Positions 7,564 to 23,416 of a stretch of DNA of 64,000 bases are shown here, one piece after another (position 1 is the stretch's first letter; each line of letters opens with the position of its first letter). The notes beneath the pieces are model-generated. The model saw nothing but the letters and a program-made list of their open reading frames with translations, did no database searches and was not told the origin of the DNA. The DNA is from Jiangella gansuensis DSM 44835 (GTDB lineage Bacteria; Actinomycetota; Actinomycetes; Jiangellales; Jiangellaceae): the NCBI RefSeq assembly GCF_000515395.1, contig NZ_KI911782.1, positions 2,354,606-2,418,605 on the forward strand. The letters run 5' to 3'. The position numbers were made by a program, and so were the translations under genes.

Positions 7564-7642
7564 TCACGTCCACCATGGGTACTCCCGCCGCACCAGGGAT
7601 GCATGCCTGGGGGAGCGGGAGCACCCATGGTGGACGTGATCA
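7561..7642. repeat. large intergenic palindrome, copy A of a three-copy family
   Basis: TGATCACGTCCACCATGGGT (7561-7580) is repeated perfectly in inverse orientation at 7623-7642. Inside are a second stem, CTCCCG (7582-7587) with CGGGAG (7616-7621), and a third, CCAGG with CCTGG, around GATGCATG. The whole element folds as one long hairpin. It fills the gap between the convergent nucleotidyltransferase and AllG-like genes, and its two ends supply their stop codons. Related elements lie near 49403 and 59686. It could act as a bidirectional terminator. Such repeat families are often mobilised by tyrosine or REP-associated transposases; none is in this window. Confidence 0.85.
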
Positions 7643-9052
7643 TTTGAGGGCCGGCAGCGGGGGAGTGGTGGCGGCGAGGGCGGCCAGCGCCGCGGTGAAG
7701 CACGCCGCGGGCGGCTGGACGAGGCCGGCGCCGACCTGGCCGGTGCCGGCGACCCGTCCCGCGATCCCGGTGTTGATCTGCGGCAGGATCCCGGTGCGAG
7801 CCACGAGCGTCACGTCGATCCCGGTCGGTGCGCCGCGGAACTCCAGGATCGGGAAGGCGTAGGCCGGGTTCTCCGCGAGCGTGATCTCGTACATGAGACG
7901 GCTGGTGGCCAGCGCGTCCGGCACGGTGCCGCCGACGAACCGGACGATCGCGGGCGCTGACGCCATGGCGAACCCGCCCAAGCCCATCGTCTCGGTGATG
8001 GTGGAGTCGCCGATGTCGGGGTTGGTGTCATCCGGGCCGTATCCGCCCAGGTAGAGGCCGGACGGGGTGTTGGCCGGCGCGGTGAACCACTGCCCGCCGG
8101 TGCCGGACAGTTGCACGCCGAAGTCGGTGCCGTTGCGGGCCATCGTGGTGACGACGCTCGACCCTGGGATGCCGGCGGCGGCCGCGGTCTGCAGCTTGCC
8201 CGCCGGCATCACCAGGTTGAGGAAGAAGTGGTCGTTGCCGGAGACGAACCGGGCGACCTCGGCGACGTCCGACGACGGCAGGCCGCTCTCGACGAGGTCG
8301 GGAAGCAGATCGCGCAGCAGCATGAGGGTGCCGGCGCGGTTGCGGTTGTGGCCTTCGTCGCCCATCTGCACCATCTGCGCGACGATGCCCTTGACGTCCA
8401 CGCGCCCGCGCCGGCGTACCGCGGCCTGTAGCGCCGGGCCCAGCACGTCGGCCATCCAGCGCAGCCGGTCGATGACCTCCGGCCCGTACGCGCCGTAGCG
8501 CAGCACCGCGCCGAGGCCCTCGTTGAGCGAGCACCAAGAGGTTCCGCCGTGGACGTCGTCGCGCAGTTCGAACAGCCACATGGACGGGGATACGACGCCG
8601 GCCATCGGCCCGACGCCGCCGCGGTCGTGGCACGGCGCCAGCTCGATCCCGGATCCCCTCGCCAGCAGTGACTCCGCTTCGTCCGGCGAACCGGCCAGGC
8701 CCTCGAACAGCATCGCTCCGACGAGCGCGCCGCGCATCGGTCCGGACGCCCGGTCCCAGGTCAGCGGCGGCCCGGCGTGGAGGAACTCACCCGGCTGCAG
8801 GCCGAGCACCTCGCGGGCGGGCCGCACGTCCACCAGGTCCGCGGTGGCGGCCAGCATCCGCGATACGGCCCGCGCGTTGGCCTCCGGCCGGCGCGGGTCG
8901 GCCAGCACTCGGGCCAGGTCGTGCGCGGTGCCGGGCATCGGCGGGCGCCAGTCGACCGGTGTGACGGGTACGGCCTGCGCGGACAGCGCCGCGGCGAACA
9001 GGTCGACGCCGGCGGTGACCACGCGCGGCGGCGTGCCGAGCAGGTCAGCCAT
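7640..9052 (-). CDS. DUF1116 protein, AllG (YlbE)-like transcarbamylase subunit
   Basis: A 470-residue DUF1116 protein. In Escherichia coli the homologue YlbE/AllG forms, with FdrA/AllF and YlbF/AllH, the oxamate transcarbamylase, which phosphorolyses oxalurate to carbamoyl phosphate and oxamate in allantoin catabolism. Recognisable family stretches include APCHDRGGVGPMAGVVSPSM, FVSGNDHFFLNL and NGTDFGVQLSG. The three genes are in the same order and strand as a complete set here (AllH-like, AllF-like, AllG-like). This start overlaps the AllF-like stop by 8 bases. There are no allantoin genes in view, so another ureido acid, such as ureidomalonate, is an equally good substrate candidate (inference). 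Confidence 0.85.
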   Translation of the reverse strand: MADLLGTPPRVVTAGVDLFAAALSAQAVPVTPVDWRPPMPGTAHDLARVLADPRRPEANARAVSRMLAATADLVDVRPAREVLGLQPGEFLHAGPPLTWDRASGPMRGALVGAMLFEGLAGSPDEAESLLARGSGIELAPCHDRGGVGPMAGVVSPSMWLFELRDDVHGGTSWCSLNEGLGAVLRYGAYGPEVIDRLRWMADVLGPALQAAVRRRGRVDVKGIVAQMVQMGDEGHNRNRAGTLMLLRDLLPDLVESGLPSSDVAEVARFVSGNDHFFLNLVMPAGKLQTAAAAGIPGSSVVTTMARNGTDFGVQLSGTGGQWFTAPANTPSGLYLGGYGPDDTNPDIGDSTITETMGLGGFAMASAPAIVRFVGGTVPDALATSRLMYEITLAENPAYAFPILEFRGAPTGIDVTLVARTGILPQINTGIAGRVAGTGQVGAGLVQPPAACFTAALAALAATTPPLPALK

Positions 9053-10538
9053 GGTCGCCTCGCACGAGGTCGACGGCAGCGCGGGCGGCGTGCGCGTTGG
9101 ACAGGTGCACCGATGCGCCCGCGTCGCGCAGCACCTTGGCCTGCGCAGAGAGGTCCTGGGGGTCGTCGGAGGTGCCGATGAGGGCGACGACGACGGCGAG
9201 GTCGCGCCCGCGTGCCCCGGCTTGATTGCGAGCCCGGACGATCGCGGGCGCCAGGTCCGCGGCCGGGTCCGGGTGGGCGCCGTGCCCGAGGACGACGTCG
9301 AGCAGGACGACCCCGCAGGACGGGTCCGAAGCCTCGGCGTGCAGCCGCTCGATGCGCAACGAGTTGTCGATCATCGGATGCGGCCGCCCCCGGGTGTAGT
9401 CGTCGTCGCCGAAGTCGATCATGGTGTGACCGTCGGCCGGCTGCCCGGGCGCCAGGGCCCAGTCCGGCCGCAGCGGGATGTTCGACCGCACCGGTCCGAG
9501 CGCCTCGCTGACGATGATCATGGCCTCGTCGCAGAGCGTGCCGCCGGCGTAGAGTCCGCGCACCGAGGCGTACGGCCCGCGCCGCGATACCGTCGCCGGC
9601 CACCAGCGCGGGGGCCGCCACTCGGCCCCGGCCTGAGTGACCACGGTTTCGGCGACAGCGGTGAGGTCCGGCTGGCCAGGTCCCAGCAGCGCCAGGACCA
9701 CGGGGGTGGGCAGTTCCTCCGCCCGCTTCCGCACTGCCTCGGAGACGTCCGGCGCCGGCGGCTTGCCGACGACGACGATGAGCTCGGTGGCGTCGTCCCC
9801 GGCCAGCAGATCGAGCGCCGCGAGCGTGGAGACGCCGCCGACCGCCGAGGCCAGGTCGCGGCCACCGACCCCGATGGCGTGGCTGATGCCGACGCCGGCG
9901 CCGTCGACCAGGCTCATGAGCTGCTGCGCGCCGGTGCCGGACGCGGCCACGACGCCCACCCGACCGGGCCGCACGACGTTGGCGAACCCGAAGCCGACCC
10001 CGCCGATCACGGCGGTGCCGCAGTCGGGGCCCATGACCAGCAGGCCCCGGTCGCCGGCCTCCCGCTTGAGCCGGACCTCGTGCTCGACCGGGACGTTGTC
10101 GGAGAACACGACGACGTGCAGCCCACTCTGCAGCGCGTCCATCACCTCGGTGAAGGCATGCTCACCCGGCGTGGAGACGAACGCGACGGTGGCGTCGTCG
10201 CGACGGACCGCGGACCCGATGGTGCGCGGGGACGGTCCGGCGCTCACCCCGGTCGGCCCGGCCTCGGCGCCGCGATCGCTCAGGGCGGACTCCAACCGGG
10301 CCAGTGCCCGGGCGAGGGTGTCGTCGTCGCCGGCCTCGATGCCGACCACCAGGTCGCCGGGGCCGGCGCCGTCCGGGCGGTCGAAGCCCATGCCGGCGAG
10401 CAGGTCGAGGTTGAGATCGGTGGCCATGGCGACCAGCGCGGACGCCACTCCGGGTTCGGTCGCCACGGCCCGGCTGACCTGCATGAGCGCCACCGAGTCG
10501 TGGTAGGTGCCGGGGCGGACCTCCAGGTGGCGGGTCAT
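9045..10538 (-). CDS. FdrA-like (AllF) acyl-CoA-synthetase-fold transcarbamylase subunit
   Basis: A 497-residue FdrA-family protein, with a succinyl-CoA-synthetase-like fold. The N-terminus (MTRHLEVRPGTYHDSV, then LMQVSR) and the internal MGPDCGTAVIGG, VVAASGTGAQQL and GVGGRDL stretches are typical of FdrA. The family is part of the AllFGH transcarbamylase, which makes carbamoyl phosphate from a ureido acid. I set the start at the ATG that overlaps the stop of the AllH-like gene (ATGA). Open reading upstream of this ATG is antisense to pucR and not coding. A carbamate kinase that could use the product is encoded at 32423. Confidence 0.87.
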   Translation of the reverse strand: MTRHLEVRPGTYHDSVALMQVSRAVATEPGVASALVAMATDLNLDLLAGMGFDRPDGAGPGDLVVGIEAGDDDTLARALARLESALSDRGAEAGPTGVSAGPSPRTIGSAVRRDDATVAFVSTPGEHAFTEVMDALQSGLHVVVFSDNVPVEHEVRLKREAGDRGLLVMGPDCGTAVIGGVGFGFANVVRPGRVGVVAASGTGAQQLMSLVDGAGVGISHAIGVGGRDLASAVGGVSTLAALDLLAGDDATELIVVVGKPPAPDVSEAVRKRAEELPTPVVLALLGPGQPDLTAVAETVVTQAGAEWRPPRWWPATVSRRGPYASVRGLYAGGTLCDEAMIIVSEALGPVRSNIPLRPDWALAPGQPADGHTMIDFGDDDYTRGRPHPMIDNSLRIERLHAEASDPSCGVVLLDVVLGHGAHPDPAADLAPAIVRARNQAGARGRDLAVVVALIGTSDDPQDLSAQAKVLRDAGASVHLSNAHAARAAVDLVRGDHG

Positions 10539-11368
10539 GACGCCCACCGGGCCGGGGCGAGGGCGAGGAGCACGCCGAGGTGGAGCGCCGCGCCGGAGGT
10601 GTGCCCGACCCGCAACAGCGCCCGGGCGGCGGCGTCGACATCGGCGTCTGGCCGGCCCAGCGCCCGGACCAGGCTCGTGAGCTGGGGAATCCCGAGGCCG
10701 CGGCGCGCGTGCGCGAGCAGGCCGGCCGAGACCGCGGTGGTGCGCTCGAACGGCCGCGTGGCGCGGACCGCGCCGTCCAAGGCGTCGGCCATGTCGGCAG
10801 CGTCGGCTGCGTCCCGCCGCGCTGCCGCCAGGGCGACAAGCGCGCCGGCCAGGACGTCGTCGCCGGCCGGGGTGAGACCCGGGCCGAGGCCGAGCAGCCC
10901 GCACACGGCGGCGCCGACGTCGCCGGCACCACTCAACGCGGCGGCGAGCCGTCCGGCGCCGCCTGCGACGGCGGCGTCCACGTCGGGCTGGGTTTCCTCG
11001 GCAGCGCGGGTGGCGGCCAGGCCGAGGTCGGCGATGCGGGCCGGCTGCGGCCGCCACCAGCGGACCACCGTGACGCCGGCGCCGTCTCGTACCCGGATCG
11101 AGCCGTCGCCCACCGTCACCGGCGTGCCCACCCGCACCCGTGGCGGCGGCACGGCGGTGACGACGGCGCACGGCAGTCGGACGGCGTCCGGGCCGGTGAC
11201 GCACACGAGGTCGGTACCCACGGCGACGGCGAGCAGGTCGCGGGTGGAGGCCACGGCCTCCCCGGCGAGCCGTGGCCCACCCACGAGCTGGGCGACGGCG
11301 GTGCTCGCCGCGCCCGGCGCCGGCGTCCGGACCACGGATGTGAGGTCCGGTGCCGTCGAAACCGGCAC
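10535..11368 (-). CDS. DUF2877 protein, AllH (YlbF)-like transcarbamylase subunit
   Basis: A 277-residue DUF2877 protein, the third component of the AllFGH-type transcarbamylase and here the first gene of the operon. The family-defining LLGLGPGLTPAGDDVLAGALVAL motif region lies near residues 155-177, and LRVGHTSGAALHLGVLLAL is near the C-terminus. The start is an ATG at 11368 next to a 76-base intergenic region shared with the divergent pucR gene. This is the usual arrangement for a catabolic operon controlled by a local PucR regulator. Its 3' end overlaps the FdrA-like start by 4 bases. Substrate is inferred from context only. Confidence 0.85.
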   Translation of the reverse strand: MPVSTAPDLTSVVRTPAPGAASTAVAQLVGGPRLAGEAVASTRDLLAVAVGTDLVCVTGPDAVRLPCAVVTAVPPPRVRVGTPVTVGDGSIRVRDGAGVTVVRWWRPQPARIADLGLAATRAAEETQPDVDAAVAGGAGRLAAALSGAGDVGAAVCGLLGLGPGLTPAGDDVLAGALVALAAARRDAADAADMADALDGAVRATRPFERTTAVSAGLLAHARRGLGIPQLTSLVRALGRPDADVDAAARALLRVGHTSGAALHLGVLLALAPARWAS

Positions 11369-11444: not shown

Positions 11445-13160
11445 ATGGGCAAACTTGCCAACGATAGGCCCTCGGCTTCGCTGGACTTGCCAGCGCCGGG
11501 TGACGGCAAGTGGCCGACGCACGCGGTGCCCGGCCTGACGGTGCGCAGGGCGATGGAGATCCCCGCGCTGGCAGGGGCCCGGTTGCTGGGCGGCGAGCAG
11601 GGCCTGGACCGGGTGGTGCGACGGGCCAACATCATGGAGGTCCCCGACATCCTGCCCTGGGTCAAGCCGCACGAGCTGTTGCTGACCACGGGATACCCGC
11701 TGCGCAACACCCCGCAGGGGCTGACGGGCCTGGTGACGGAGCTGGACGCGCGCGGGCTGTCCGCGCTCGGCGTGAAGCTGCACCGGTACCTGGACGCGCT
11801 GCCGGACGAGATGATCGAGGAGGCGGACCGGCTCGGGCTGCCGCTGTTGCTGCTGCCCGACGCCGTAGGTTTCGACGACATCCTCAACCAGGTGCTCACG
11901 GGTGTCCTCAACCGGCAGGCCGCGGCGCTGGAGCGGTCCTGGGAGGTGCACCACGCGCTGCTGTCGGTGGTGCTGGAGGGCGGCGGGCTGTCCGAGCTGG
12001 CGGCCAAGACGTCCGCGGTGCTGGGCGTCGAGGTCTTCGTGACCACCTCCGACGGACGAGTGCTCGCCGAAGGCGGCAACACCGACGATCTCACGGCCTG
12101 GCGCCGCACGCCGTCGTTCGACTCCTCCGGCCGCTTCCGTACCGAGCACGAGCCCGGTGGCGTCCACGAGCACCCCGACGTGCCGGGCTGCCACGCCGTC
12201 GTCTCCATCGTCGCCGGCCGGGTCGACCACGGCCGCATCGTCGCGTTCGCCCGGCACCGACTCCTCGACGACGCCGACGTCCACGTCCTCGAACGCGCCG
12301 CGACAGTGGCCGCGCTGGCGGTGATCAAGCAGCTCGCGGTGACCGCGGTCGAGGGCAAGTACCGCGGCGACTTCCTCCGCGACGTGCTCGCCGGCCGGGC
12401 CGGTGACCGCGCCCGCGTCGTCACGCACTGCGAGTCGCTGGGCTGGGACGTCGACCGGCCACTGGTGGTCGTCGTGGCCGAGCTGGACGCGGACACCGGG
12501 CCCGTGCCGGCGACCGGACTGCAGCTGCGGCCGGTTCAGGAGCGCTTCAGCGTCGCCTGGCACAGCGTCCTGGCCCGCCGGGACAGCCGGGCCGCCGTCG
12601 TCGGGTTCACCCAGGAGGTGGTGGCGCTGGTACCGGTGCCGGCCGGCCAGGACGCCGAGGCCGTCGTCCGCGAGCTGGTCCGCCAGGTGGCCGGCGACGG
12701 CGGCGGTGGCCGGCGCTCGTTCTCCACCGGGATCAGCCGGCCCGTGGACGATCCCGAACGGCTGCCGGCCGCCTACGAGCAGGCGCGCCGCGCCGTCGAC
12801 GTCGGGCGGCAGATGAACGGGCCGGGCTCGCTGGCGCACTTCGACAGCCTGGGGTCGTTCCGGCTGCTCAGCCAGATCGAGGACCGCGAGGAGTTGCGCG
12901 GCTTCGTTCGCGAGACCCTGCACGGCCTGGCCGCGGAGGACGACCCGGAGATGGCGGATCTGCGGCACACCCTCAAGGTGCTGCTGGACACCAACCTCAA
13001 CGTGGCCGAGGCCGCCCGGCAGCTGCACTTCCACTACAACACGCTGCGGTACCGCATCACCAAGCTGGAGCGCATCCTCGGCCCGTTCACCGCCGATCCC
13101 GACCTGCGGCTGGACCTGGCGCTGGCGCTGAAAGTGCTGCAGATGCGCGGCCTGAGCTGA
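11445..13160 (+). CDS. PucR-family transcriptional regulator
   Basis: A 571-residue regulator. The N-terminal PucR domain begins about residue 30 (LTVRRAMEIPALAGARLLGG, then ANIMEVPDILPWVKPHELLLTTGYP). A central region resembles the GGDEF-like/CdaR ligand and dimer domain. The C-terminal PucR-type helix-turn-helix has LNVAEAARQLHFHYNTLRYR near residues 525-545. PucR controls purine catabolism in Bacillus, and relatives control purine, pyrimidine and amino acid breakdown. It is divergent from the AllH-F-G operon and near the permease/molybdenum-hydroxylase operon. I chose the ATG at 11445; the long in-frame sequence upstream is antisense to the all-like genes. Confidence 0.92.
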   Translation: MGKLANDRPSASLDLPAPGDGKWPTHAVPGLTVRRAMEIPALAGARLLGGEQGLDRVVRRANIMEVPDILPWVKPHELLLTTGYPLRNTPQGLTGLVTELDARGLSALGVKLHRYLDALPDEMIEEADRLGLPLLLLPDAVGFDDILNQVLTGVLNRQAAALERSWEVHHALLSVVLEGGGLSELAAKTSAVLGVEVFVTTSDGRVLAEGGNTDDLTAWRRTPSFDSSGRFRTEHEPGGVHEHPDVPGCHAVVSIVAGRVDHGRIVAFARHRLLDDADVHVLERAATVAALAVIKQLAVTAVEGKYRGDFLRDVLAGRAGDRARVVTHCESLGWDVDRPLVVVVAELDADTGPVPATGLQLRPVQERFSVAWHSVLARRDSRAAVVGFTQEVVALVPVPAGQDAEAVVRELVRQVAGDGGGGRRSFSTGISRPVDDPERLPAAYEQARRAVDVGRQMNGPGSLAHFDSLGSFRLLSQIEDREELRGFVRETLHGLAAEDDPEMADLRHTLKVLLDTNLNVAEAARQLHFHYNTLRYRITKLERILGPFTADPDLRLDLALALKVLQMRGLS

Positions 13161-14934: not shown

Positions 14935-16491
14935 GTGGCACTGGGCTGGAAGGTCGTCTACGACGGCAAGACACCGCCACCGGGCGAGGTGGTCCGGCCC
15001 GACGAGCGGCTCTCGTGGGGGCGGACGGCCGGGCTCGGCGCGCAACACGTGGTGGCCATGTTCGGTGCCACCTTCGTGTTCCCGCTCATCATGGGGTTGA
15101 ACCCCCAACTGGCCATCATGATGAGCGGCATCGCGACCATCTGCTTCCTGCTCATCGTCCGGGGAGTGGTGCCCAGCTACCTCGGCACCAGCGCCTCGTT
15201 CGTCGGCGGCGTGGTGGCCATCCGCGAGCAGGGCGGCGACTCCTCCGACGTCACCGGCGCCATCCTGGTGGCCGGTGTGGTGCTGGCTGCCGTCGGCATC
15301 GCCATCCACTACCTGGGCGCCCGGGTGCTGCACCGGGTACTGCCACCGGTGGTCACCGGTGCGGTCGTGATGCTCATCGGCTTCAACCTCGCGCCGGTGG
15401 TGGCCAACACGTACTGGCCGCAGGACCAGTGGATCGCGTTGATCGTGATGACCCTGGTCATCGTGATGGCGGTCGGGTTGCGCGGTTTCCTCGGCCGCAT
15501 CGCCATCTTCGTGGGCCTGGTCGGCGGGTACGCCCTGTCGTGGGTGTTCGACCGGGTCTTCGGCCAGATCACCGCGTTCGACCCGGCCGCGAACGCCGAG
15601 ACGACGCACGACCGGGTCAACTTCGACGGGGTCCGCGAGGCCGACTGGTTCGGCTTCCCCGATGAGACGTTCGTCAACGCCCAGGGCGTCGAGGTGCCGG
15701 GCTGGCACCTGCCCAGCTTCAGTGTCACCTTCATCCTGCTCGTCCTTCCCGCGGTCATCGCGCTGATCGCCGAGAACGCCGGCCACGTCAAGGCCGTCGC
15801 CGAGATCACCGAGCGCGACCTCGACCCCGTCATGGGCAAGGCGATCGCCGCCGACGGCGTCGGCACCGTCATCGCGACCTCCGTCGGCGGCTCGCCCACC
15901 ACGACCTACGCGGAGAACATCGGGGTCATGGCGGCCACCCGGGTGTACTCGACGGCCGCTTACTACGTGGCGGCGGTGGTGGCCATCCTGTTCGGGTTCT
16001 CGCCGAAGTTCGGCGCGCTGATCTCGGCCACTCCGGGCGGGGTGCTCGGCGGCATCACCGTCGTGCTGTACGGCATGATCGGGCTGCTCGGCGCCCGCAT
16101 CTGGATCGAGAACCGGGTCGACTTCGCCAATCCGGTCAACCTGGTGCCGGTGTCGGCGGGCATCATCATCGCCATCGGCGACACGTCGCTGGAGGTCACA
16201 GACGACTTCGTGCTGTCCGGCATCGCGCTGGGCACGATCGTCACCGTCGTCGCGTACCACCTCGCACGTGCCGTCGCGCCGGCGCACCTGCGGGAGGGTG
16301 CCGTCCTCACCGTCGGGCCACCCGGGGTGCACCAGGCGGACGACGGCGACGCGCCCGGCCACGGCGACGCGCCCGGCGACGGCGACGCGCCCGGCGACGG
16401 CGACGCGCCCGGCGACGGCGACGCGCCCGGCGACGGCGACGATCCGGGGGCCGAACCGCCGGGCACCACGCCGCCCGGCGAGAGAGGATGA
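14935..16491 (+). CDS. uracil-xanthine permease family transporter (NCS2)
   Basis: A 518-residue nucleobase:cation symporter-2 protein with about 14 membrane segments, matching uracil/xanthine permeases. Key stretches are GLGAQHVVAMFGATFVFPLI, SVTFILLVLP then IALIAENAGHV (the region of the substrate-binding Glu), VGGSPTTTYAENIGVMA and ISATPGGVLGGITVVLYGMIG. The pattern is closer to UraA than to XanQ by eye, so uracil is a good candidate substrate. The hydrophilic tail after about residue 445 carries five 6-residue Gly-Asp-Ala-Pro-Gly-Asp repeats. The GTG start follows AGGAGG. Four bases separate its stop from the coxM GTG, so transport and oxidation genes share an operon. Confidence 0.9.
   Translation: MALGWKVVYDGKTPPPGEVVRPDERLSWGRTAGLGAQHVVAMFGATFVFPLIMGLNPQLAIMMSGIATICFLLIVRGVVPSYLGTSASFVGGVVAIREQGGDSSDVTGAILVAGVVLAAVGIAIHYLGARVLHRVLPPVVTGAVVMLIGFNLAPVVANTYWPQDQWIALIVMTLVIVMAVGLRGFLGRIAIFVGLVGGYALSWVFDRVFGQITAFDPAANAETTHDRVNFDGVREADWFGFPDETFVNAQGVEVPGWHLPSFSVTFILLVLPAVIALIAENAGHVKAVAEITERDLDPVMGKAIAADGVGTVIATSVGGSPTTTYAENIGVMAATRVYSTAAYYVAAVVAILFGFSPKFGALISATPGGVLGGITVVLYGMIGLLGARIWIENRVDFANPVNLVPVSAGIIIAIGDTSLEVTDDFVLSGIALGTIVTVVAYHLARAVAPAHLREGAVLTVGPPGVHQADDGDAPGHGDAPGDGDAPGDGDAPGDGDAPGDGDDPGAEPPGTTPPGERG
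16345..16434 (+). repeat. five tandem 18-base units in the permease tail
   Basis: Five copies of an 18-base unit (GGCGACGCGCCCGGCGAC, first copy with one change) run in frame and encode GDAPGD repeats. A partial sixth copy follows. The perfect identity of the last four copies suggests recent expansion, and copy number may vary between strains. Confidence 0.9.
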
Positions 16492-16495
16492 ATAC

Positions 16496-17434
16496 GTGAA
16501 GCCAGCGGGGTTCACCTACCACCGGCCGTCGACCGTGGCCGAAGCCGTCGACGTGCTGGCCGAGGTGAGCCCCGCGGGCAAGGTGCTGGCCGGTGGGCAG
16601 AGCCTGGTGCCGCTGCTGTCGATGCGGCTGGCCGCACCGGCGCATCTGGTCGACGTCAACCGGCTGACCGAGTTGGCGTTCGTGCGGGTCACGACGGACG
16701 ACGACGGCGCCGGCCCGGCGGTGGTGGTCGGAGCGCTGGCCCGGCACACCGACGTCGAGCGGGACCAGCCCGCCCACGCCGCGCTGCCGCTGCTGCGGGA
16801 GGCTCTGCGCAGCGTCGCGCATCCCACCGTCCGCAACCGCGGCACGACGGTGGGTAGCATCGCCCACGCCGACCCGGCCGGTGAGATGGGTGCGGTGCTG
16901 GCGCTGGCCGGCGGCACGGTGACGCTGCGCTCGGTGCGCGGCAGCCGCACGGTGGCCGCCGCCGACTTCACGACCGGGCCGATGGAGACGTCCGCGGCGC
17001 CGGACGAGCTGGTGACGTCCGCGACGTTCCCGGTCCCGGCGGGCCGCACCGGTACGGCCTGGACCGAGCTGGCCCGCCGCAACGGGGACTACGCCGTGTG
17101 CGGCGTGGGGGTGGTGGTGACCCTCGACGACGACCTGCGGGTGTCGGCCGCCCGGGCCGCCTACGTGTCCGTGGCGCCCGTGCCGCCGGTGCTCGACCTC
17201 ACCGACGCGGTGGCCGGGCTGCGAGCCGACGAAGCCGGCGACGGCGGCCGTGACGGCGGCCGTGACGGCGGCCGTGACGACCGCTGGGCCGCCGCCGGCC
17301 GGCTGGCCGCGAGCCGGCTCGACCCCGACGACGACATCCACGCCACGGCCGCGTACCGGCGCCGGCTCGCGGCCGTGCTGACCGCACGCGCGCTGCGCAC
17401 GGCCGCCCGCCGTGCCCTGGAGGTGAGCGCATGA
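16496..17434 (+). CDS. FAD-binding subunit of a CO-dehydrogenase-family molybdenum hydroxylase (CoxM-like)
   Basis: A 312-residue FAD-binding subunit that passes electrons from the Fe-S subunit to an acceptor. The FAD motifs are intact: LAGGQSLVPLLSMRL (near residues 34-48) and the RNRGTTVGSIAHADPAGE motif near 114-131. CO_deh_flav_C features follow (ELARRNGDYAVCGV). Between these and the final helices an Asp/Gly/Arg insertion is made of three perfect 12-base repeats (17243-17278). The GTG start is preceded by AGAGGA. The medium, small and large subunits follow in order, though a 103-base gap with a hairpin separates this gene from the small subunit. Confidence 0.92.
   Translation: MKPAGFTYHRPSTVAEAVDVLAEVSPAGKVLAGGQSLVPLLSMRLAAPAHLVDVNRLTELAFVRVTTDDDGAGPAVVVGALARHTDVERDQPAHAALPLLREALRSVAHPTVRNRGTTVGSIAHADPAGEMGAVLALAGGTVTLRSVRGSRTVAAADFTTGPMETSAAPDELVTSATFPVPAGRTGTAWTELARRNGDYAVCGVGVVVTLDDDLRVSAARAAYVSVAPVPPVLDLTDAVAGLRADEAGDGGRDGGRDGGRDDRWAAAGRLAASRLDPDDDIHATAAYRRRLAAVLTARALRTAARRALEVSA
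17243..17278 (+). repeat. three tandem 12-base units in coxM-like gene
   Basis: GGCGGCCGTGAC is repeated three times perfectly and encodes Gly-Gly-Arg-Asp repeats in a loop of the FAD subunit. It resembles the in-frame expansion in the permease tail upstream. Confidence 0.9.
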
Positions 17435-17449
17435 CCGCCCCGGAGCGCC

Positions 17450-17509
17450 ACTTCTGGAGACTTGCGCACCCTACGAGGACCGTTCTGGCGTGCATAAGTC
17501 TCCAGAAGT
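17450..17509. repeat. hairpin repeat between coxM-like and coxS-like genes
   Basis: ACTTCTGGAGACTT (17450-17463) is perfectly inverted as AAGTCTCCAGAAGT (17496-17509). The 32-base loop has further partial symmetry. It sits inside the operon, in the 103-base gap after the FAD subunit. It may be an inserted palindromic element, or a transcript-processing or attenuation point that changes subunit ratio. Confidence 0.75.
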
Positions 17510-17537
17510 CGCGCCGGCAGGCGGCGGGGGTGGCCCC

Positions 17538-18044
17538 ATGAGCGAAGAGCTCCACGAGGTGACGCTGGTGGTGAACGGGGTGCCGCGGTCGGCGGCCGTG
17601 CCGGCGCGGCGTCTTCTGTCGGACTTCCTGCGCCACGACCTCGAACTGACCGGCACCCACGTCGGTTGCGAGCACGGTGTGTGCGGCGCCTGCACGGTGC
17701 TCCTCGAGGGCCGGCCGATCCGTTCGTGCCTGCAGTTCGCCGTCACCGTCGACGGCGCCGAGGTCACCACCGTCGAAGGCTGCACCCGGCCGGACGGCGA
17801 GCTCGGCGCGGTGCAGCAGGCGTTCCAGGACTGTCACGGGCTGCAGTGCGGTTTCTGCACGCCCGGGTTCGTCACCACCATCACCGCCTACCTGGAGGAG
17901 AACCCGGCGCCGACGGCACAGGAGGCGCGCGAGGCAATCGCGGGCAACCTGTGCCGCTGCACCGGCTACCAGAACATCGTGGCGTCGGTCCTGCGGGCAG
18001 CCCAGTTGCGCCGCGGCCGCCCGGACGAGGCGGCGGCGTCATGA
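17538..18044 (+). CDS. 2Fe-2S subunit of the molybdenum hydroxylase (CoxS-like)
   Basis: A 168-residue iron-sulfur subunit that relays electrons from the molybdenum centre to FAD. The plant-ferredoxin-type cluster is bound by C44, C49, C52 and C64. The second cluster is bound by C104 and C107 (CGFCTPG) and C139 and C141 (CRCTGY). All eight ligands are present and the length is normal. I start at ATG 17538 (MSEELHEVTLVVNG); a longer in-frame start at 17490 lies in the intergenic hairpin. Its stop overlaps the large-subunit ATG (ATGA). Family members pair with CO, nicotinate, purine or pyrimidine hydroxylases, so substrate comes from the large subunit and context. Confidence 0.94.
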   Translation: MSEELHEVTLVVNGVPRSAAVPARRLLSDFLRHDLELTGTHVGCEHGVCGACTVLLEGRPIRSCLQFAVTVDGAEVTTVEGCTRPDGELGAVQQAFQDCHGLQCGFCTPGFVTTITAYLEENPAPTAQEAREAIAGNLCRCTGYQNIVASVLRAAQLRRGRPDEAAAS

Positions 18045-20449
18045 CCACGTCGATGATCGGCGAGCCGATCGCGCGCCGCGAGGACCCGAGGCTGCTCACC
18101 GGGCAGGGCCGCTTCCTCGACGACATCGGCCATGACGCGCTGGCCGCGGCGTTCGTGCGCAGCCCGTACGCGCACGCCCGGGTCGTCGACGTCGACGTCA
18201 CCGACGCGCTGGACGTCGACGGGCTGGTCGCCGTCTACACGCACGAGGACCTGGAGGGGCGGGTCGGCGAGCCGCTGCCGCTGCTCATCCCGCACGCGGC
18301 GCTCACCCACGGCCGCACCCCGTACCCGCTGGCGAAGGACGAGGTCAACCACGTCGGCGAGGCCGTGGTCATGGTGGTGGCCACCGACCGGTACGTGGCC
18401 GAGGACGCCTGCGAGCGCATCCGCGTCACGTACGAGCCGCTCGAGCCCGTCGTCGGCATCGAGCTGGCTCGGGCTGCTGACCTGCTCGTTCATGACGACG
18501 TCCCCGGCAACGTGTCGGCGCACCTGGTGCAGGAGAACGGCGACGCCCGCGCCGCCGTGGCGGCGGCCCCGAACGTGCTGGAGCTCGACCTGGAGATCGA
18601 GCGCAGCGCCTCCACGCCGCTGGAGGGCAAGGGGGTGCACGCGCGCTGGGATGCCGACGACCGCAGCCTGCGCGTCTACACCTCCACCCAGGCGTCCACC
18701 TCGGTGCGCGCGGCGCTGGCCGCCAAGCTGGAGCTGCCGCCGAACCGCGTCGAGGTCATCGCGCCCGACGTCGGCGGCGGCTTCGGGGTGAAGATCGTGC
18801 ATCCGTGGCCGGAGGAGGTGCTGGTGCCGTGGGCGGCCATCCGGCTGGGCCGCGAGGTCAAGTGGACCGAGGACCGCCGCGAGCACTTCGTCTCCGCCGC
18901 GCACGAACGCGGCCAGCTGCAGCACGTCCGCGTCGGCTTCGACGACGACGGGCGGCTGCTCGGCCTCGACGTCACGGTCTGGCACGACAACGGCGCCTAC
19001 ACGCCGTACGGGATCATCGTGCCGATCATCACGACGACCCAGCTGCTCGGGCCGTACAAACCTGGCGCGTACCGCGCGGAGTTCTTCAGCCTCTACACCA
19101 ACACCGTCACGGTCACGCCGTACCGGGGCGCCGGCCGGCCGCAGGGCTGCTTCGCGATGGAACGCACCATGGACGCCATCGCCGAACACCTCGGGCTGGA
19201 CCGCACCGCGGTGCGCGAGCGCAACTTCATCCGCCCCGACGAAATGCCCTTCGACCACGGCCTGACGTTCCAGGACGGGCGGCCGCTGATCTACGACTCC
19301 GGCGACTATCCGGCCACCCTGGAGAAGGTCAAGAAGCTGGTCGGGTGGGACGAGTTCGAGTCGTTCCGGTCCGAGGCGCGGGCTGCCGGCCGGCGGGTGG
19401 GCATCGGAATCGGCTGCTACGTCGAGGGCACCGGGGTCGGCCCGTACGAGGGCGGTTTCGTCAAGGTCGAGACCGACGGGACCATCGTCGTCGCCACCGG
19501 CCTCACCACCCAGGGGCAGGGCCACCAGACGGTGTTCGCCCAGGTCGTGGCCGCGGAGCTGGGGGTGCCGATCGACCGGGTGACGGTCACCACCGGCGAC
19601 ACCCGGCGGTTCGGATACGCCGTCGGCACGTTCGCGTCGCGGGCGGCGGTCATGAGCGGCAACGCCATCGCCCTGGCCGCCCGGAAGGTCCGCGACAAGG
19701 CGCTGCGGGTGGCCGGCGAGGCGCTGGAGGCGGACCCGCGCGACCTGGAGATCGTCGACGGTGTCGTACGGGTGGTGGGGTCGCCCGAGACGGCTCCGGG
19801 CACGAGCATCCCGCTGGCCACCGTCGCGGTCCTGGCCAACCCGCTGCGCTACGCCTTCGACCGCGAGGCGGAGCGGGCCACCCAGTTCGGCGGGCCGGTC
19901 GACGTCACGAAGCCGCCGGTGGCCGAGGGCGACGAGCCGGGTCTGGAGGAGACCGGGTACTACTCGCCGCCGCGCTCCACCTTCGCCAACGGCATGCACG
20001 CGGTGGTCGTCGAGACCGACCCGGACACCGCCGAGATCTCCATCCTGCGCTACTGCGTGGTGCACGACTGCGGCACGCTGCTCAACCCGCGCATCGTCGA
20101 GGGGCAGATCCATGGCGGGGTGGCCCAGGGCGTCGGGGGAGCGCTGTACGAACGTCTGGTGTACGACGAGGCGGGCCAGCTGCTCAACGCGTCCTTCATG
20201 GACTTCCTGATGCCGTACGCGACCGAGGTGCCGGTCATCGAGACCGACCACCTGCAGACGCCGTCGCCGCTGAACCCGCTGGGCATCAAGGGCGCGGGGG
20301 AGGCCGGCGTCATCCCGGTGTCGGCGGCGCTGGCGTCGGCCATCTCCGACGCGGAGGGGCTCGCGATCACGCGCATGCCCATCTCGCCGTCGGAGCTGTA
20401 CGAGTTGCGGCTACGGAGTTCTGGTCCGGCCGGAAGGGATGAGCGCTGA
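18041..20449 (+). CDS. molybdenum-binding large subunit, form II (xanthine-dehydrogenase-type); candidate pyrimidine hydroxylase
   Basis: An 802-residue large subunit carrying the molybdopterin cofactor and active site. The loop that in true (form I) CO dehydrogenase reads AYxCSFR is here PYRGAGR (residues 360-366). This is the form II pattern without the copper-binding Cys, so CO oxidation is unlikely. The general-base Glu is E754 in GIKGAGEAG, and the cofactor loop GLTTQGQGHQT is present. The operon has a nucleobase permease, and the window has a barbiturase-family gene and an AllFGH-like set. I therefore infer hydroxylation of uracil/thymine or another pyrimidine or purine. It overlaps coxS by 4 bases and coxG by 1. 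Confidence 0.9.
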   Translation: MTTSMIGEPIARREDPRLLTGQGRFLDDIGHDALAAAFVRSPYAHARVVDVDVTDALDVDGLVAVYTHEDLEGRVGEPLPLLIPHAALTHGRTPYPLAKDEVNHVGEAVVMVVATDRYVAEDACERIRVTYEPLEPVVGIELARAADLLVHDDVPGNVSAHLVQENGDARAAVAAAPNVLELDLEIERSASTPLEGKGVHARWDADDRSLRVYTSTQASTSVRAALAAKLELPPNRVEVIAPDVGGGFGVKIVHPWPEEVLVPWAAIRLGREVKWTEDRREHFVSAAHERGQLQHVRVGFDDDGRLLGLDVTVWHDNGAYTPYGIIVPIITTTQLLGPYKPGAYRAEFFSLYTNTVTVTPYRGAGRPQGCFAMERTMDAIAEHLGLDRTAVRERNFIRPDEMPFDHGLTFQDGRPLIYDSGDYPATLEKVKKLVGWDEFESFRSEARAAGRRVGIGIGCYVEGTGVGPYEGGFVKVETDGTIVVATGLTTQGQGHQTVFAQVVAAELGVPIDRVTVTTGDTRRFGYAVGTFASRAAVMSGNAIALAARKVRDKALRVAGEALEADPRDLEIVDGVVRVVGSPETAPGTSIPLATVAVLANPLRYAFDREAERATQFGGPVDVTKPPVAEGDEPGLEETGYYSPPRSTFANGMHAVVVETDPDTAEISILRYCVVHDCGTLLNPRIVEGQIHGGVAQGVGGALYERLVYDEAGQLLNASFMDFLMPYATEVPVIETDHLQTPSPLNPLGIKGAGEAGVIPVSAALASAISDAEGLAITRMPISPSELYELRLRSSGPAGRDER

Positions 20450-21099
20450 TGAAGGTGACCGGTTCCGCAGTCCTGCATGCTCCGCCGGAGCAGGTGTGGC
20501 GTGCGCTCAACGACCCCGCGGTCCTGGTGCGCACCATCCCCGGCTGCCAGCGGCTGGAGGAGGACGGCCCGGACCGCTACCGGATGACGGTCACCGCAGG
20601 CGTCGGCACCATCAAGGGCACCTACGCCGGCAACGTGTCCCTGCACGACCAACAGGAGCCGGCATCGTTCGTCCTGACGGCATCCGGCGCCGGCGCGCCC
20701 GGGACGGTGAGCGCGGACGTCCTGGTCCGGCTGAGCGGCGACGACGACGGCGCCACCCGCCTGGACTACGACGCCGACGCCGTCGTGGGCGGCATGATCG
20801 GCGGCGTCGGGCAGCGCATGCTGGCCGGGGTGGCGAAGAAGACGGCCGGGGAGTTCTTCGCCGCCGTCGACGACATCCTGACCGGCCGTGCCGCAGAGGC
20901 GGTGCCGGCGCCGGCCGGTCCGGTCGACGCGGCTGGTCGCGCCGCGATGCCCGCCGTCTACCGCGACGCCGAACCGGGACGCGTCCCGCGGCAGGACGGG
21001 TTCGTCCGCGGCGTGCTCGTCGGAGCCGCGGTCGCACTCGCCGGCGTCGCCGTCGGCGGCTGGCTGGCCGGCCGAAGCCGTGGAGGCGTTGCTGGCTAA
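20449..21099 (+). CDS. CoxG-like SRPBCC protein with C-terminal membrane anchor
   Basis: A 216-residue carbon-monoxide-dehydrogenase subunit G homologue. The SRPBCC (CoxG) domain covers about residues 1-150, beginning VTGSAVLHAPPEQVWRALND, with IPGCQRLEEDGPDRYR and TRLDYDADAVVGGMIG. A hydrophobic helix near the end (RGVLVGAAVALAGVAVGGWLAG) would anchor it to the membrane. Known CoxG recruits the enzyme to the membrane and is linked to quinone reduction; the same role is inferred here. The start overlaps the large-subunit stop by one base (TGATG). Its stop lies inside the operator palindrome of the following toxin-antitoxin pair. Confidence 0.88.
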   Translation: MKVTGSAVLHAPPEQVWRALNDPAVLVRTIPGCQRLEEDGPDRYRMTVTAGVGTIKGTYAGNVSLHDQQEPASFVLTASGAGAPGTVSADVLVRLSGDDDGATRLDYDADAVVGGMIGGVGQRMLAGVAKKTAGEFFAAVDDILTGRAAEAVPAPAGPVDAAGRAAMPAVYRDAEPGRVPRQDGFVRGVLVGAAVALAGVAVGGWLAGRSRGGVAG

Positions 21100-21122: not shown

Positions 21123-21380
21123 ATGGGCGAGTCGGCAGTGGTGCAGTACAACATCCATGAGGCGAAGACCCAGCTGTCGCGGATCATCGAACGGGTCGAG
21201 CGGGGTGAGCAGGTGGTCATCAGCCGTGCCGGAGTCCCGGTGGCGAAGGTCGTGCCCCTGCCGGCCAACGCGCGGCGGCGGCAGCGCGGCTCGTTGGCCG
21301 GTCGGATACAGCTGGCCGACGACTGGGACTCCGACGAGCTCAATGACTCGATCGCCGCCGGCTTCGGGCTGCGGCCGTGA
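21123..21380 (+). CDS. Phd/YefM-family antitoxin (pair 1)
   Basis: An 85-residue antitoxin. Residues about 8-50 (YNIHEAKTQLSRIIERVERG, then VVISRAGVPVAKVVPL) are the Phd/YefM fold, which binds operator DNA as a dimer. The C-terminal tail (IQLADDWDSDELNDSIAAGF) is the acidic region that typically wraps and inhibits the toxin. The stop overlaps the toxin GTG by 4 bases. Expected to neutralise the adjacent PIN toxin and repress the pair through the palindrome immediately upstream. The pair lies directly after the cox operon. Confidence 0.9.
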   Translation: MGESAVVQYNIHEAKTQLSRIIERVERGEQVVISRAGVPVAKVVPLPANARRRQRGSLAGRIQLADDWDSDELNDSIAAGFGLRP

Positions 21381-21763
21381 CCACCCGGGCCAGGTATCTG
21401 CTCGACACCCACGTGGTGCTGTGGTGGCTCGCGGACGACCCGACGCTCGCCGACGACCTCAAAGCGATGATCGACGAGGAGCGCGAGGTCTACGTGAGCG
21501 CGGTCACCGGGTGGGAAGTCGCGATCAAGCAGCGCATCGGCAAGCTGACGTCCCCGGTCGATCTCGCTGGAGAGATCCGCGACAGCGACCTGCACCAGCT
21601 GCCCGTCACGTTCGAGCACGTGGTCGAGGTGGGACGGCTTCCGTCACACCACCGCGACCCGTTCGACCGGATGCTGGTGGCACAGGCGCGGGCGGAACGG
21701 CTGAAGCTGGTGACTCGCGAAACCGCCATCCACGGCTACGACGTGCCCGTTCTCAAGGCCTAG
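21377..21763 (+). CDS. PIN-domain toxin (VapC-like, pair 1)
   Basis: A 128-residue PIN-domain ribonuclease toxin. The first catalytic Asp is in LLDTHVVLWW. The central Glu/Trp motif is VSAVTGWEVAIKQRIGKL, and the HRDPFDRMLVAQA motif supplies the second and third acidic residues. The order and length match the Phd-associated PIN toxins that cut RNA, often tRNA. It starts with a GTG overlapping the antitoxin stop. It is about 50% similar by eye to the toxin of pair 2, so the two modules look like diverged paralogues. A 7-bp hairpin follows at 21785-21804. Confidence 0.9.
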   Translation: MTTRARYLLDTHVVLWWLADDPTLADDLKAMIDEEREVYVSAVTGWEVAIKQRIGKLTSPVDLAGEIRDSDLHQLPVTFEHVVEVGRLPSHHRDPFDRMLVAQARAERLKLVTRETAIHGYDVPVLKA

Positions 21764-21784
21764 CTGTGCCAACAGCGGGCCGTA

Positions 21785-21804
21785 GCGTCACCCTGGCGTG
21801 ACGC
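21785..21804 (+). terminator. hairpin after toxin-antitoxin pair 1
   Basis: GCGTCAC (21785-21791) and GTGACGC (21798-21804) form a 7-bp stem with loop CCTGGC, about 20 bases after the toxin stop. There is no U-tract, so it may be a terminator or a spacer element between the two modules. Confidence 0.45.
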
Positions 21805-21820
21805 AACTGAGCTGCTACAG

Positions 21821-21846
21821 TGGACTAAGCCCTATGGCTTAGTCCA
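21821..21846 (+). promoter_or_regulatory. perfect palindromic operator for toxin-antitoxin pair 2
   Basis: TGGACTAAGCC (21821-21831) and GGCTTAGTCCA (21836-21846) are a perfect 11-bp inverted repeat around CTAT, 15 bases before the antitoxin GTG. This is the expected site for autorepression by the antitoxin-toxin complex. It shares CTAAG/CTTAG with operator 1. Confidence 0.75.
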
Positions 21847-21861
21847 ATCGGAGGTGGACTT

Positions 21862-22095
21862 GTGACCCCGGTCGTGAATGTTCATGAGGCCAAGACCAAC
21901 TTCTCCAAGCTGTTGGAGCAGGCGCATGCTGGCCAGGAGATCATCGTTGCCAAGGCCGGCAAGCCTTACGCCCGTCTCATGCCGCTCGCATCGGAGCCCG
22001 CGAGCCGTCGGCCCGGGCGGCTCGCAGGGCGGGTGGGCAACGAGTTCTTCGAACCGCTCCCCGCCGAAGAGCTTGATGCCTGGGGTCAGGGCTGA
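21862..22095 (+). CDS. Phd/YefM-family antitoxin (pair 2)
   Basis: A 77-residue antitoxin. VVNVHEAKTNFSKLLEQAHAGQ and IIVAKAGKPYARLMPL form the Phd/YefM DNA-binding fold. The short acidic tail (EFFEPLPAEELDAWGQG) is the likely toxin-binding part. The GTG start follows GGAGGTGGA, an adequate ribosome site. The stop overlaps the toxin ATG by one base (TGATG). The N-terminal half is clearly related to the pair 1 antitoxin, while the tails differ, as expected if each neutralises only its own toxin. Confidence 0.9.
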   Translation: MTPVVNVHEAKTNFSKLLEQAHAGQEIIVAKAGKPYARLMPLASEPASRRPGRLAGRVGNEFFEPLPAEELDAWGQG

Positions 22096-22481
22096 TGCAG
22101 CTGCTGCTCGACACCCACACACTGCTCTGGTGGTTCACCGACGACGACAGGCTGTCGCTCGAGGCTCGCGCCGCGATCGCCGACGAGGCGAATGAGGTGT
22201 TCGTCAGCGCGGCGTCGGCGTGGGAGATCGCCACGAAGCAGCGGCTGGGCAAGCTCGCCGACGTGCCGCAGGCGGCGACACGCTACGTTGAGCTGGTGGC
22301 GGCCGACGGCTTTGTCCACCTACCGGTCACGCACGTGCACAGTCTTCGCGCAGGCGGGTACGAGGTTGCCCATCGAGACCCGTTCGATCGCATGCTGGCC
22401 GCTCAGGGCGAGCTCGAGGGCATGCTGTTGGTGACCCTTGACGACGCGTTCGAGCAGTTCGAGGTCGCCACCTTGTGGTAA
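22095..22481 (+). CDS. PIN-domain toxin (VapC-like, pair 2)
   Basis: A 128-residue PIN-domain toxin with LLLDTHTLLWWF (first Asp), FVSAASAWEIATKQRLGKL (Glu) and HRDPFDRMLAAQ (later Asp residues). It is the same length as the pair 1 toxin and aligns with it along the whole sequence. It is likely to be an RNA-cutting growth inhibitor held in check by the overlapping antitoxin. It is followed after 32 bases by the amidase gene, which has its own strong ribosome site, so co-transcription with the amidase is possible but not shown. Confidence 0.9.
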   Translation: MQLLLDTHTLLWWFTDDDRLSLEARAAIADEANEVFVSAASAWEIATKQRLGKLADVPQAATRYVELVAADGFVHLPVTHVHSLRAGGYEVAHRDPFDRMLAAQGELEGMLLVTLDDAFEQFEVATLW

Positions 22482-22513: not shown

Positions 22514-23416
22514 ATGCGGAGCTTCACTGCGGCGGCCGTGCAGGTGCGGCCTCGGGCCGAGCTGCTGACCGCCGAGAGCATCAAGGCGAACACGGAGCAC
22601 GCCATCGACTACGTGGAGCGCTGCGTCGCCGACACCGGCGCGGAGCTGGTGGTGCTGCCCGAGTCCGTCACCACCGGGTTCACCCCCGGCGGCCTCGACC
22701 CCGCGCGCCTGTGGGACCTCGTCGACGTCATCCCCGGGCCGCTGGCCGAGCCGTTCCAGGATGCGGCCCGGCGCCTGGGCGTGCACCTGGTGTGGGGAAC
22801 CTACGAGCGCGGCCCCGACCGCGGAGTCGTCTACAACTCCGCCCTGCTGGCCGGCCCGGACGGCGAGATCCGCGGCGTCTACCGCAAGACACATCCGTTC
22901 TGCACCGAGCTGGCGTCGCAGGGCGGCTGGGTGACACCCGGCGCCGACCCGTGCGTCGTCGACACCGAGCTCGGCCGCATCGGCATGATGATCTGCTTCG
23001 ACGGCGACTTCCCCGAGCTGTCGCGTATCACCGCGGTGCGCGGCGCCGAGGTGATCGTGCGGCCGTCGGCACTGCTGCGCTCGGCCGACCTGTGGGAGCT
23101 CACCAACCGGGCCCGTGCGTACGACAACCACGTCTTCGTCGTGGGCGCCAACTGCACCGGCACCGACCCGGCCGGCGTGATGTACTTCGGCAACTCGATG
23201 ATCGTGACCCCGGTGGCCGAGGTGGTGGCGCGGGCGGCCACCCACGAGTGCTGGGTGTCCGCGTGGCTCGACCCGGACGCGGCGCTGCGCTCGCTGACGC
23301 CCGGGTCCAGCATCGTGCAGCGTTTCGACCACCTCGCCGACCGCAACCTCGAGCTGATCAGCCGCTACGCCGAGGACCTCGCCGCCCCCGCCCGGACCAC
23401 GTTCCCGCACGCCTGA
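22514..23416 (+). CDS. nitrilase-superfamily carbon-nitrogen hydrolase
   Basis: A 300-residue C-N hydrolase. The catalytic triad is visible as Glu in VVLPESVTTGF, Lys in YRKTHPF and Cys in MMICFDGDFPE. The family hydrolyses amides or N-carbamoyl compounds (omega-amidases, N-carbamoylputrescine amidases, beta-ureidopropionases). The start has GGGAGGGG 7 bases upstream. It lies between toxin-antitoxin modules, and between the cox operon and the barbiturase operon. A role as malonamate amidase in pyrimidine breakdown is an attractive inference from the pathway, but any small aliphatic amide is possible. Confidence 0.88.
   Translation: MRSFTAAAVQVRPRAELLTAESIKANTEHAIDYVERCVADTGAELVVLPESVTTGFTPGGLDPARLWDLVDVIPGPLAEPFQDAARRLGVHLVWGTYERGPDRGVVYNSALLAGPDGEIRGVYRKTHPFCTELASQGGWVTPGADPCVVDTELGRIGMMICFDGDFPELSRITAVRGAEVIVRPSALLRSADLWELTNRARAYDNHVFVVGANCTGTDPAGVMYFGNSMIVTPVAEVVARAATHECWVSAWLDPDAALRSLTPGSSIVQRFDHLADRNLELISRYAEDLAAPARTTFPHA

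Follow-up and report, generated by a model that had tools for sequence, protein, structure and literature searches.

A barbiturase-linked CoxMSL-type molybdenum hydroxylase of Jiangella gansuensis as candidate uracil/thymine dehydrogenase

The window analyzed in this study, a stretch of 64,000 nt from Jiangella gansuensis DSM 44835 for which gene starts were picked by a home-made caller, harbors a forward-strand operon (permease-coxM-coxS-coxL-coxG, 14935-21099) encoding a three-subunit molybdenum hydroxylase. The enzyme CoxM-CoxS-CoxL is probably a uracil/thymine dehydrogenase, which we take to be EC 1.17.99.4, followed in the proposed pathway by barbiturase, the carbamoyltransferase AllF-AllG-AllH, carbamate kinase and a CN-hydrolase. 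CoxL probably oxidizes uracil and not CO, because its gene travels with barbiturase in many actinobacteria. The observations comprise the identities of the genes, the residues of the barbiturase, and gene linkage and co-occurrence; predicted from these are every reaction in J. gansuensis, the electron acceptor and the sequence in which the steps beyond barbiturase take place. An earlier sequence-only reading of this DNA had named coxMSL a uracil/thymine dehydrogenase candidate; a barbiturase gene 13 kb downstream, co-occurrence of both genes in 24 of 396 genomes (2.0 expected), the gene neighbors in Rhodococcus erythropolis and a uracil-type permease support that suggestion. Descriptions of the oxidative pyrimidine pathway date back to the 1950s (PMC3758960). 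No gene for uracil/thymine dehydrogenase was found in the literature searched, the original enzyme papers and a 2012 family paper being outside its reach, and the earlier remark that this gene is not known to be firmly assigned agrees with that result.

Gene calls and Pfam matches confirmed the coordinates 16496-20449 previously given for coxMSL, all three genes being located on the forward strand: the FAD subunit gene coxM (16496-17434; PF00941 FAD_binding_5, PF03450 CO_deh_flav_C), the [2Fe-2S] subunit gene coxS (17538-18044; PF00111 Fer2, PF01799 Fer2_2) and coxL (18041-20449), encoding the molybdopterin subunit and proposed dehydrogenase large subunit (NF040766; Ald_Xan_dh_C, MoCoBD_1 and MoCoBD_2). 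The barbiturase gene (AtzD/barbiturase fold; 33387-34499, forward strand; PF09663, 483 bits) is located approximately 13 kb downstream. Its product matched barbiturase 5hwe, presumably the Rhodococcus enzyme, over its whole length with 652 bits, as compared to at most 328 bits for solved cyanuric acid hydrolases. At AtzD positions 195, 321, 325, 345 and 346, barbiturases feature Asn, His, Lys, Val and Ser/Ala, whereas cyanuric acid hydrolases possess Arg, Thr, Arg, Gly and Gly (PMC3758960). The window protein carries N194, H325, K329, V349 and S350 and thus all five published barbiturase residues.

Linkage between both enzymes was evaluated in an even set of 396 Actinomycetota genomes, applying thresholds of E ≤1e-20 for the AtzD/barbiturase family and E ≤1e-220 for NF040766, the family of the window CoxL. 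NF040766 was detected in 30 genomes, the AtzD/barbiturase family in 27 and both in the 24 mentioned above. The corresponding hypergeometric p of ~1e-29 exaggerates the association owing to the relatedness of the genomes, although seven families are represented. Both genes reside on one contig, 0.03-33 kb apart, in 12 of the 24 genomes and on separate contigs of draft assemblies in the other 12. Residue inspection classified 22 of the 27 AtzD-family genomes as barbiturase-like: 12 match the published set completely, and 10 have Gly as the fifth residue. Of these 22, 21 contain NF040766; neither of the two genomes with the cyanuric-hydrolase residue set does. Within the window's own order, both genes occur in 20 of 22 genomes, the two having neither being 75% and 81% complete, and 14 of the 20 encode them on one contig, 12.7-22.5 kb apart.

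Moreover, the best 80 named barbiturase loci among the matches listed were inspected in stretches of up to 10 kb on each side. All 80 carry the barbiturase residues (fifth residue Ser in 78, Ala in two). A CoxL of NF040766 lies inside the stretch in 23 loci; for the other 57, 49 genomes were searched, and 45 of them encode NF040766 above its cut-off. Further neighbors are carbamate kinase (72 loci), HyuB (51), HyuA (46), family III CoA-transferases (37) and AccD/AccA-like proteins (14). In R. erythropolis NBRC 15567 (L092), barbiturase, amidase, permease, coxMSL and coxG are found within 11 kb. This locus starts with genes for an XdhC-type protein, PucR and a permease, followed on the other strand by an AccD/AccA-like carboxyltransferase, a family III CoA-transferase and PucR, and continues with barbiturase, amidase, aminotransferase, permease, coxM, coxS, coxL, coxG and hyuA. 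Its CoxL is 64-65% identical to that of the window. The strain used for the barbiturase work was R. erythropolis JCM 3132 = CCM2595 (PMC3961730); coxMSL is thus found near barbiturase in the species known for the activity, in a different strain. A more compact arrangement was observed in genome G202 (locus L161, 7677-15574, family f51), where a gap of 34 bases separates coxM-coxS-coxL from an AtzD-family gene. An amidase is also encoded there, as is an acyl-CoA synthetase for which malonyl-CoA synthase ranks as the next-best model. The AtzD-family proteins of L161 and of L171-L173, whose clusters are likewise compact, fit neither published residue set.

In the proposed pathway, the uracil-type permease would import the substrate, and cytoplasmic CoxMSL would hydroxylate uracil, and probably thymine too, at C6 with oxygen from water, yielding barbiturate or 5-methylbarbiturate. 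As judged from the enzyme family, electrons would pass from molybdenum via two [2Fe-2S] clusters to FAD and on to an acceptor, probably the membrane quinone pool. CoxG (20449-21099, forward strand; PF06240, 93 bits) is the proposed membrane anchor for CoxMSL. Homologues of CoxG are described as anchoring such enzymes to the membrane, and the same source assigns CoxG no role in electron transfer (PMC11962113). A respiratory acceptor is likely because of this anchoring function and because a hydrophobic segment forms the C-terminus of the window CoxG. Barbiturase would open the ring to ureidomalonate. Phosphorolysis of this compound by AllF-AllG-AllH would probably release malonamate and carbamoyl phosphate, and from the latter, carbamate kinase would form ATP. 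The CN-hydrolase (nitrilase superfamily; 22514-23416, forward strand; PF00795, 161 bits), a putative malonamate amidase or ureidomalonase, would produce malonate from malonamate. Family III CoA-transferases and AccD/AccA-like proteins may convert malonate to CoA esters.

The carbamoyltransferase branch is encoded on the reverse strand by allG (7640-9052; PF06545, 312 bits; product 46% identical to E. coli AllG), the allF/fdrA-type gene (9045-10547; PRK06091, 417 bits at a cut-off of 433; 39% identical to E. coli AllF) and allH (10535-11335, start uncertain; PF11392, 77 bits), whereas the carbamate kinase gene (32423-33394, forward strand) scored 311 bits with TIGR00746, below its cut-off of 358, and 301 bits with the subfamily model PRK12352, above its cut-off of 266. 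E. coli AllFGH is a proven oxamic transcarbamylase converting oxalurate and phosphate to oxamate and carbamoyl phosphate (PMC11326118). All three window subunits and the kinase are homologous to the E. coli set. Ureidomalonate, as its next homologue, extends oxalurate by one carbon, and an analogous reaction would therefore yield malonamate and carbamoyl phosphate. Most of the clusters encode AllF-AllG-AllH, usually together with carbamate kinase. Among the 396 genomes, AllG is present in 49. These include 21 of the 24 possessing both CoxL and the AtzD family (it is missing from the three of family f51), genome G325, and five of the six that contain CoxL without the AtzD family. In 11 genomes, allG shares one contig with coxL and the barbiturase gene; eight of these have all three on one strand. 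In the AllG tree, the 12 barbiturase-linked rows cluster together (94/98), separately from E. coli AllG, and G034 groups with three rows of family f10 (99/98). The position of this AllG outside the E. coli clade makes a substrate other than oxalurate/oxamate plausible but is no proof of it.

We consider it an even proposition that the AllFGH branch represents a ureidomalonate (malonurate) carbamoyltransferase and that NF040766 comprises uracil/thymine dehydrogenases feeding the respiratory chain via CoxG, so that uracil would yield carbamoyl phosphate, ATP and malonate and not urea, and Rhodococcus would retain a hydrolytic route relying on amidase and urease. It is conceivable, albeit less probable, that the hydroxylase is a uracil dehydrogenase while the amidase or the CN-hydrolase hydrolyzes ureidomalonate to malonate and urea, with AllFGH and the kinase serving elsewhere. 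Urea is the published Rhodococcus product (PMC3758960, PMC7662398), and an amidase gene adjoins barbiturase in R. erythropolis and occurs in the G202 cluster as well. Against urea formation stand the presence of AllG in 22 of the 27 AtzD-family genomes (3.3 expected), the single clade of linked AllG proteins and the rarity of urease among AllG carriers: its alpha subunit scored above the cut-off in only four of the 31 AllG-positive genomes examined, as compared to four of nine AllG-negative ones (Fisher p 0.059). This contrast is suggestive only, because four of the nine AllG-negative genomes are drafts of 74-89% completeness without a urease match above the cut-off and Haloechinothrix has neither. 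Three Rhodococcus genomes, R. erythropolis among them, have urease and gave no AllG match; in the window genome, consisting of one contig, AllG is present and urease gave no match. The same urease argument is made for enteric bacteria in PMC11326118. Furthermore, AllF, AllG, carbamate kinase and a conserved small gene were observed together in L174-L176, in genomes without barbiturase or NF040766, as a putative further ureido-acid pathway.

Several observations weigh against a uracil dehydrogenase acting in this pathway. Linkage to barbiturase does not prove the hydroxylase substrate. An AtzD-family gene was not found in six of the 30 NF040766 genomes (G034, G049, G053, G156, G178, G399). Three of these six (family f10; L164, L168, L179) have coxMSL-hyuAB-allF-allG clusters with a divergent, ~53% identical CoxL and no AtzD-family gene; there, HyuAB may be the ring opener. 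In three f51 genomes, the AtzD-family proteins do not show the barbiturase signature (after Asn they have gaps or Gly, and one sequence is truncated); each of these genomes carries a divergent NF040766. Conversely, NF040766 was not found in four of the 49 searched barbiturase genomes, namely a Pseudonocardia acaciae isolate record and three metagenome bins. The cluster of Catenulispora rubra contains carbamate kinase, yet no AllG match. In G325 (L169, 3248-11778), barbiturase and allHFG are followed by a different, xanthine-dehydrogenase-like hydroxylase triad, whose large subunit has XdhA as its nearest match, although the 501 bits stay below the cut-off; this triad is possibly a second, unrelated uracil dehydrogenase. 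A sister cluster (L153) encodes a second permease of xanthine type. The window barbiturase also passes the NCBI equivalog model for cyanuric acid amidohydrolase, NF052395, with 476 bits at a cut-off of 360. Assignment as a cyanuric acid hydrolase was rejected nevertheless, since the residues and the closest solved enzyme were weighed above this cut-off. As a side observation, the NF052395 cut-off is likely misleading, given that a barbiturase passes it.

Finally, the best conserved neighbors, HyuA and HyuB, have no explained role in the pathway. In the window, HyuA (hydantoinase/oxoprolinase A; 28275-30350; PF01968, PF05378, PF19278) and HyuB (hydantoinase B; 30347-32206; PF02538, 457 bits) are encoded on the forward strand. 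Both are kept beside coxL even in family f10, which has no barbiturase, and R. erythropolis keeps HyuA. As a guess only, they may open 5-methylbarbiturate in an ATP-dependent manner or another ring, or they may signal a second hydroxylase substrate. These genes are the starting point for an unlikely reading in which the hydroxylase acts on another cyclic amide, such as hydantoin or N-methylhydantoin, HyuA/HyuB open the product, AllFGH splits it and barbiturase serves a parallel substrate. In its favor, HyuA/HyuB adjoin coxL in many clusters, including the three without barbiturase, an N-methylhydantoinase (7hk5, 482 bits) is the nearest solved relative of the window HyuA, and E. coli AllFGH has been proven to use oxalurate (PMC11326118). 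However, the f51 clusters and G202 combine coxMSL with an AtzD-family gene and show no HyuA/HyuB within the stretches examined. The presence of NF040766 in 21 of 22 genomes with barbiturase-type residues and the uracil type of the permease likewise speak against this reading.

The permease gene (14935-16491, forward strand; PF00860, 252 bits) ends four bases before the coxM start, and its product belongs to the NCS2 family, in accordance with the uracil/xanthine-type permease previously noted at this position. Among NCBIfam models, RutG matched with 352 bits, the uracil permease UraA with 270 and the xanthine permease PbuX with 157. The best Protein Data Bank matches were uracil permeases (187-191 bits), as compared to at most 60 bits for the uric acid-xanthine permease, and the window signature ENIGVMAATRVYS aligns with the uracil permease motif ENIGVMAITRVYS. 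Four sister loci encode cytosine deaminase-like proteins (three were tested, all scoring below equivalog cut-offs), and the L153 cluster contains dihydropyrimidinase in two adjacent pieces. No PreA-type dihydropyrimidine dehydrogenase exceeded the model cut-off in the window genome. These scores bear on purine catabolism, in which CoxMSL would be a xanthine/hypoxanthine dehydrogenase and AllFGH would act on allantoin-derived oxalurate. This is very unlikely, despite the presence of a PucR-type regulator, AllFGH and carbamate kinase and despite matches of xanthine dehydrogenase models to the window CoxL of up to 394 bits. All of these models score far below their cut-offs and far below NF040766, the permease prefers RutG over PbuX, and the window AllG lies outside the E. 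coli clade. Moreover, in the region from 3.8 to 34.5 kb, where 20 genes were tested and the rest inspected by eye, no gene for allantoinase, allantoate hydrolase or ureidoglycolate dehydrogenase was recognized. Both the permease scores and this absence of allantoin genes disfavor the purine route.

The window CoxL matched NF040766 (CODH_aero_grp5, which NCBI names aerobic CO dehydrogenase) with 1521 bits at a cut-off of 950. Its best solved relatives are quinoline 2-oxidoreductase (449 bits), 6-hydroxypseudooxynicotine dehydrogenase (433) and form I CO dehydrogenase (401). Near the C-terminus it features a GAGE motif, the Glu of which is presumably the one expected in the xanthine oxidase superfamily. 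The active-site loop reads TPYRGAGRP, its Pro being residue 360. In a CoxL tree of 57 rows computed by a quick method, the window and R. erythropolis fall into a main clade with 100% SH-aLRT support, neighbored by f10 and f51. PYRGAGR is present in 42 of 42 main-clade rows, three of three f10 rows, two of three f51 rows (it is missing from L173) and two of eight distant paralogues, the latter also including two with AYRGAGR and two with AYACSFR, the form I loop. The leading Pro had been suggested as possibly relevant to the substrate. This suggestion was not supported: the residue fits the main clade but is unspecific because distant paralogues share PYRGAGR, and it was rejected as a substrate marker on these grounds and owing to the absence of the motif from L173.

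For form I CO dehydrogenase, the loop AYXCSFR and the gene order coxMSL are characteristic (PMC13203968). The window shows this gene order with PYRGAGR in place of AYXCSFR, and neither the AYRGAGR loop nor the coxSLM order of the putative form II is found. The form I model TIGR02416 gave 437 bits at a cut-off of 991, and no protein of the window genome exceeded that cut-off. True AYACSFR paralogues, 35-36% identical, are encoded separately in the close relatives L184 and L186, so that the earlier judgment of CO oxidation as unlikely stands. An aerobic CO dehydrogenase, as suggested by the NCBI family name and the form I gene order (PMC13203968), is hardly credible and was rejected on loop, family score and neighboring genes, barbiturase among them. 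The name 'CO dehydrogenase' of NF040766 is likely misleading for CoxL proteins of the window type.

The related genes extend from 3834 to 34499, starting with a maturation set. The MoxR, VWA, XdhC-like and MobA-like genes named earlier were located at 3834-7563, all on the forward strand: a MoxR-type AAA+ ATPase (3834-4721; PF07728; MadB model 252 bits, below cut-off), a CoxE-type VWA protein (4718-5881; PF05762, 193 bits), an XdhC-type molybdenum cofactor maturation factor (5856-6980; PF13478, PF02625) and a MobA/MocA-like nucleotidyltransferase (7066-7563; PF12804, 88 bits). They are followed by allG, allF and allH and, divergently from these, by a PucR-type regulator gene (11526-13160, forward strand, start uncertain; PF07905, PF13556, PF17853); the operon, the CN-hydrolase gene, hyuA, hyuB and the carbamate kinase and barbiturase genes complete the series. 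CoxG, located in the same operon, barbiturase, AllG/AllF/AllH and carbamate kinase had not been mentioned in the sequence-only reading. Unrelated genes are interspersed, e.g., regulators and small toxin-antitoxin-like genes recognized by eye at 21123-22481. Between coxG and the CN-hydrolase gene, antitoxin/PIN-type toxin-antitoxin-like genes were observed at 21123-21763 and 22095-22481. In L080, L086 and L114, the CN-hydrolase gene sits between coxG and hyuA, all three being contiguous, and the window may therefore carry an insertion.

Taken together, the data support CoxMSL well as a candidate for an enzyme to which the literature searched assigns no gene, and the predicted pathway variant appears to be new. 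NF040766 provides a testable named-family candidate gene for an activity described in the 1950s, and R. erythropolis is a suitable organism for such a test. If the proposal is true, actinobacterial genes counted as potential CO oxidizers belong to nucleobase recycling, the barbiturase family gains a natural substrate supply, and AllFGH would represent a general module for ureido acids and not an allantoin enzyme alone.

In comparison to uracil/thymine dehydrogenase, the same reaction is predicted, and barbiturase, permease and coxMSL are neighbors in R. erythropolis, the species of the pathway work; however, the known activity is tied to no sequence in the literature searched. Rhodococcus barbiturase 5hwe and the window copy share a whole-length match and the five specificity residues, the latter copy being encoded in one gene run with carbamate kinase and HyuA/HyuB. 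Regarding E. coli AllFGH and AllK, AllF, AllG, AllH and the kinase are homologous, but the window AllG belongs to a separate clade, its gene neighbors include barbiturase instead of allantoin genes, and its predicted substrate is one carbon longer. Quinoline 2-oxidoreductase, 6-hydroxypseudooxynicotine dehydrogenase and form I CO dehydrogenase represent the same superfamily (xanthine oxidase) and are likewise composed of three subunits; the window enzyme differs from them in its loop, its gene neighbors and its predicted substrate.

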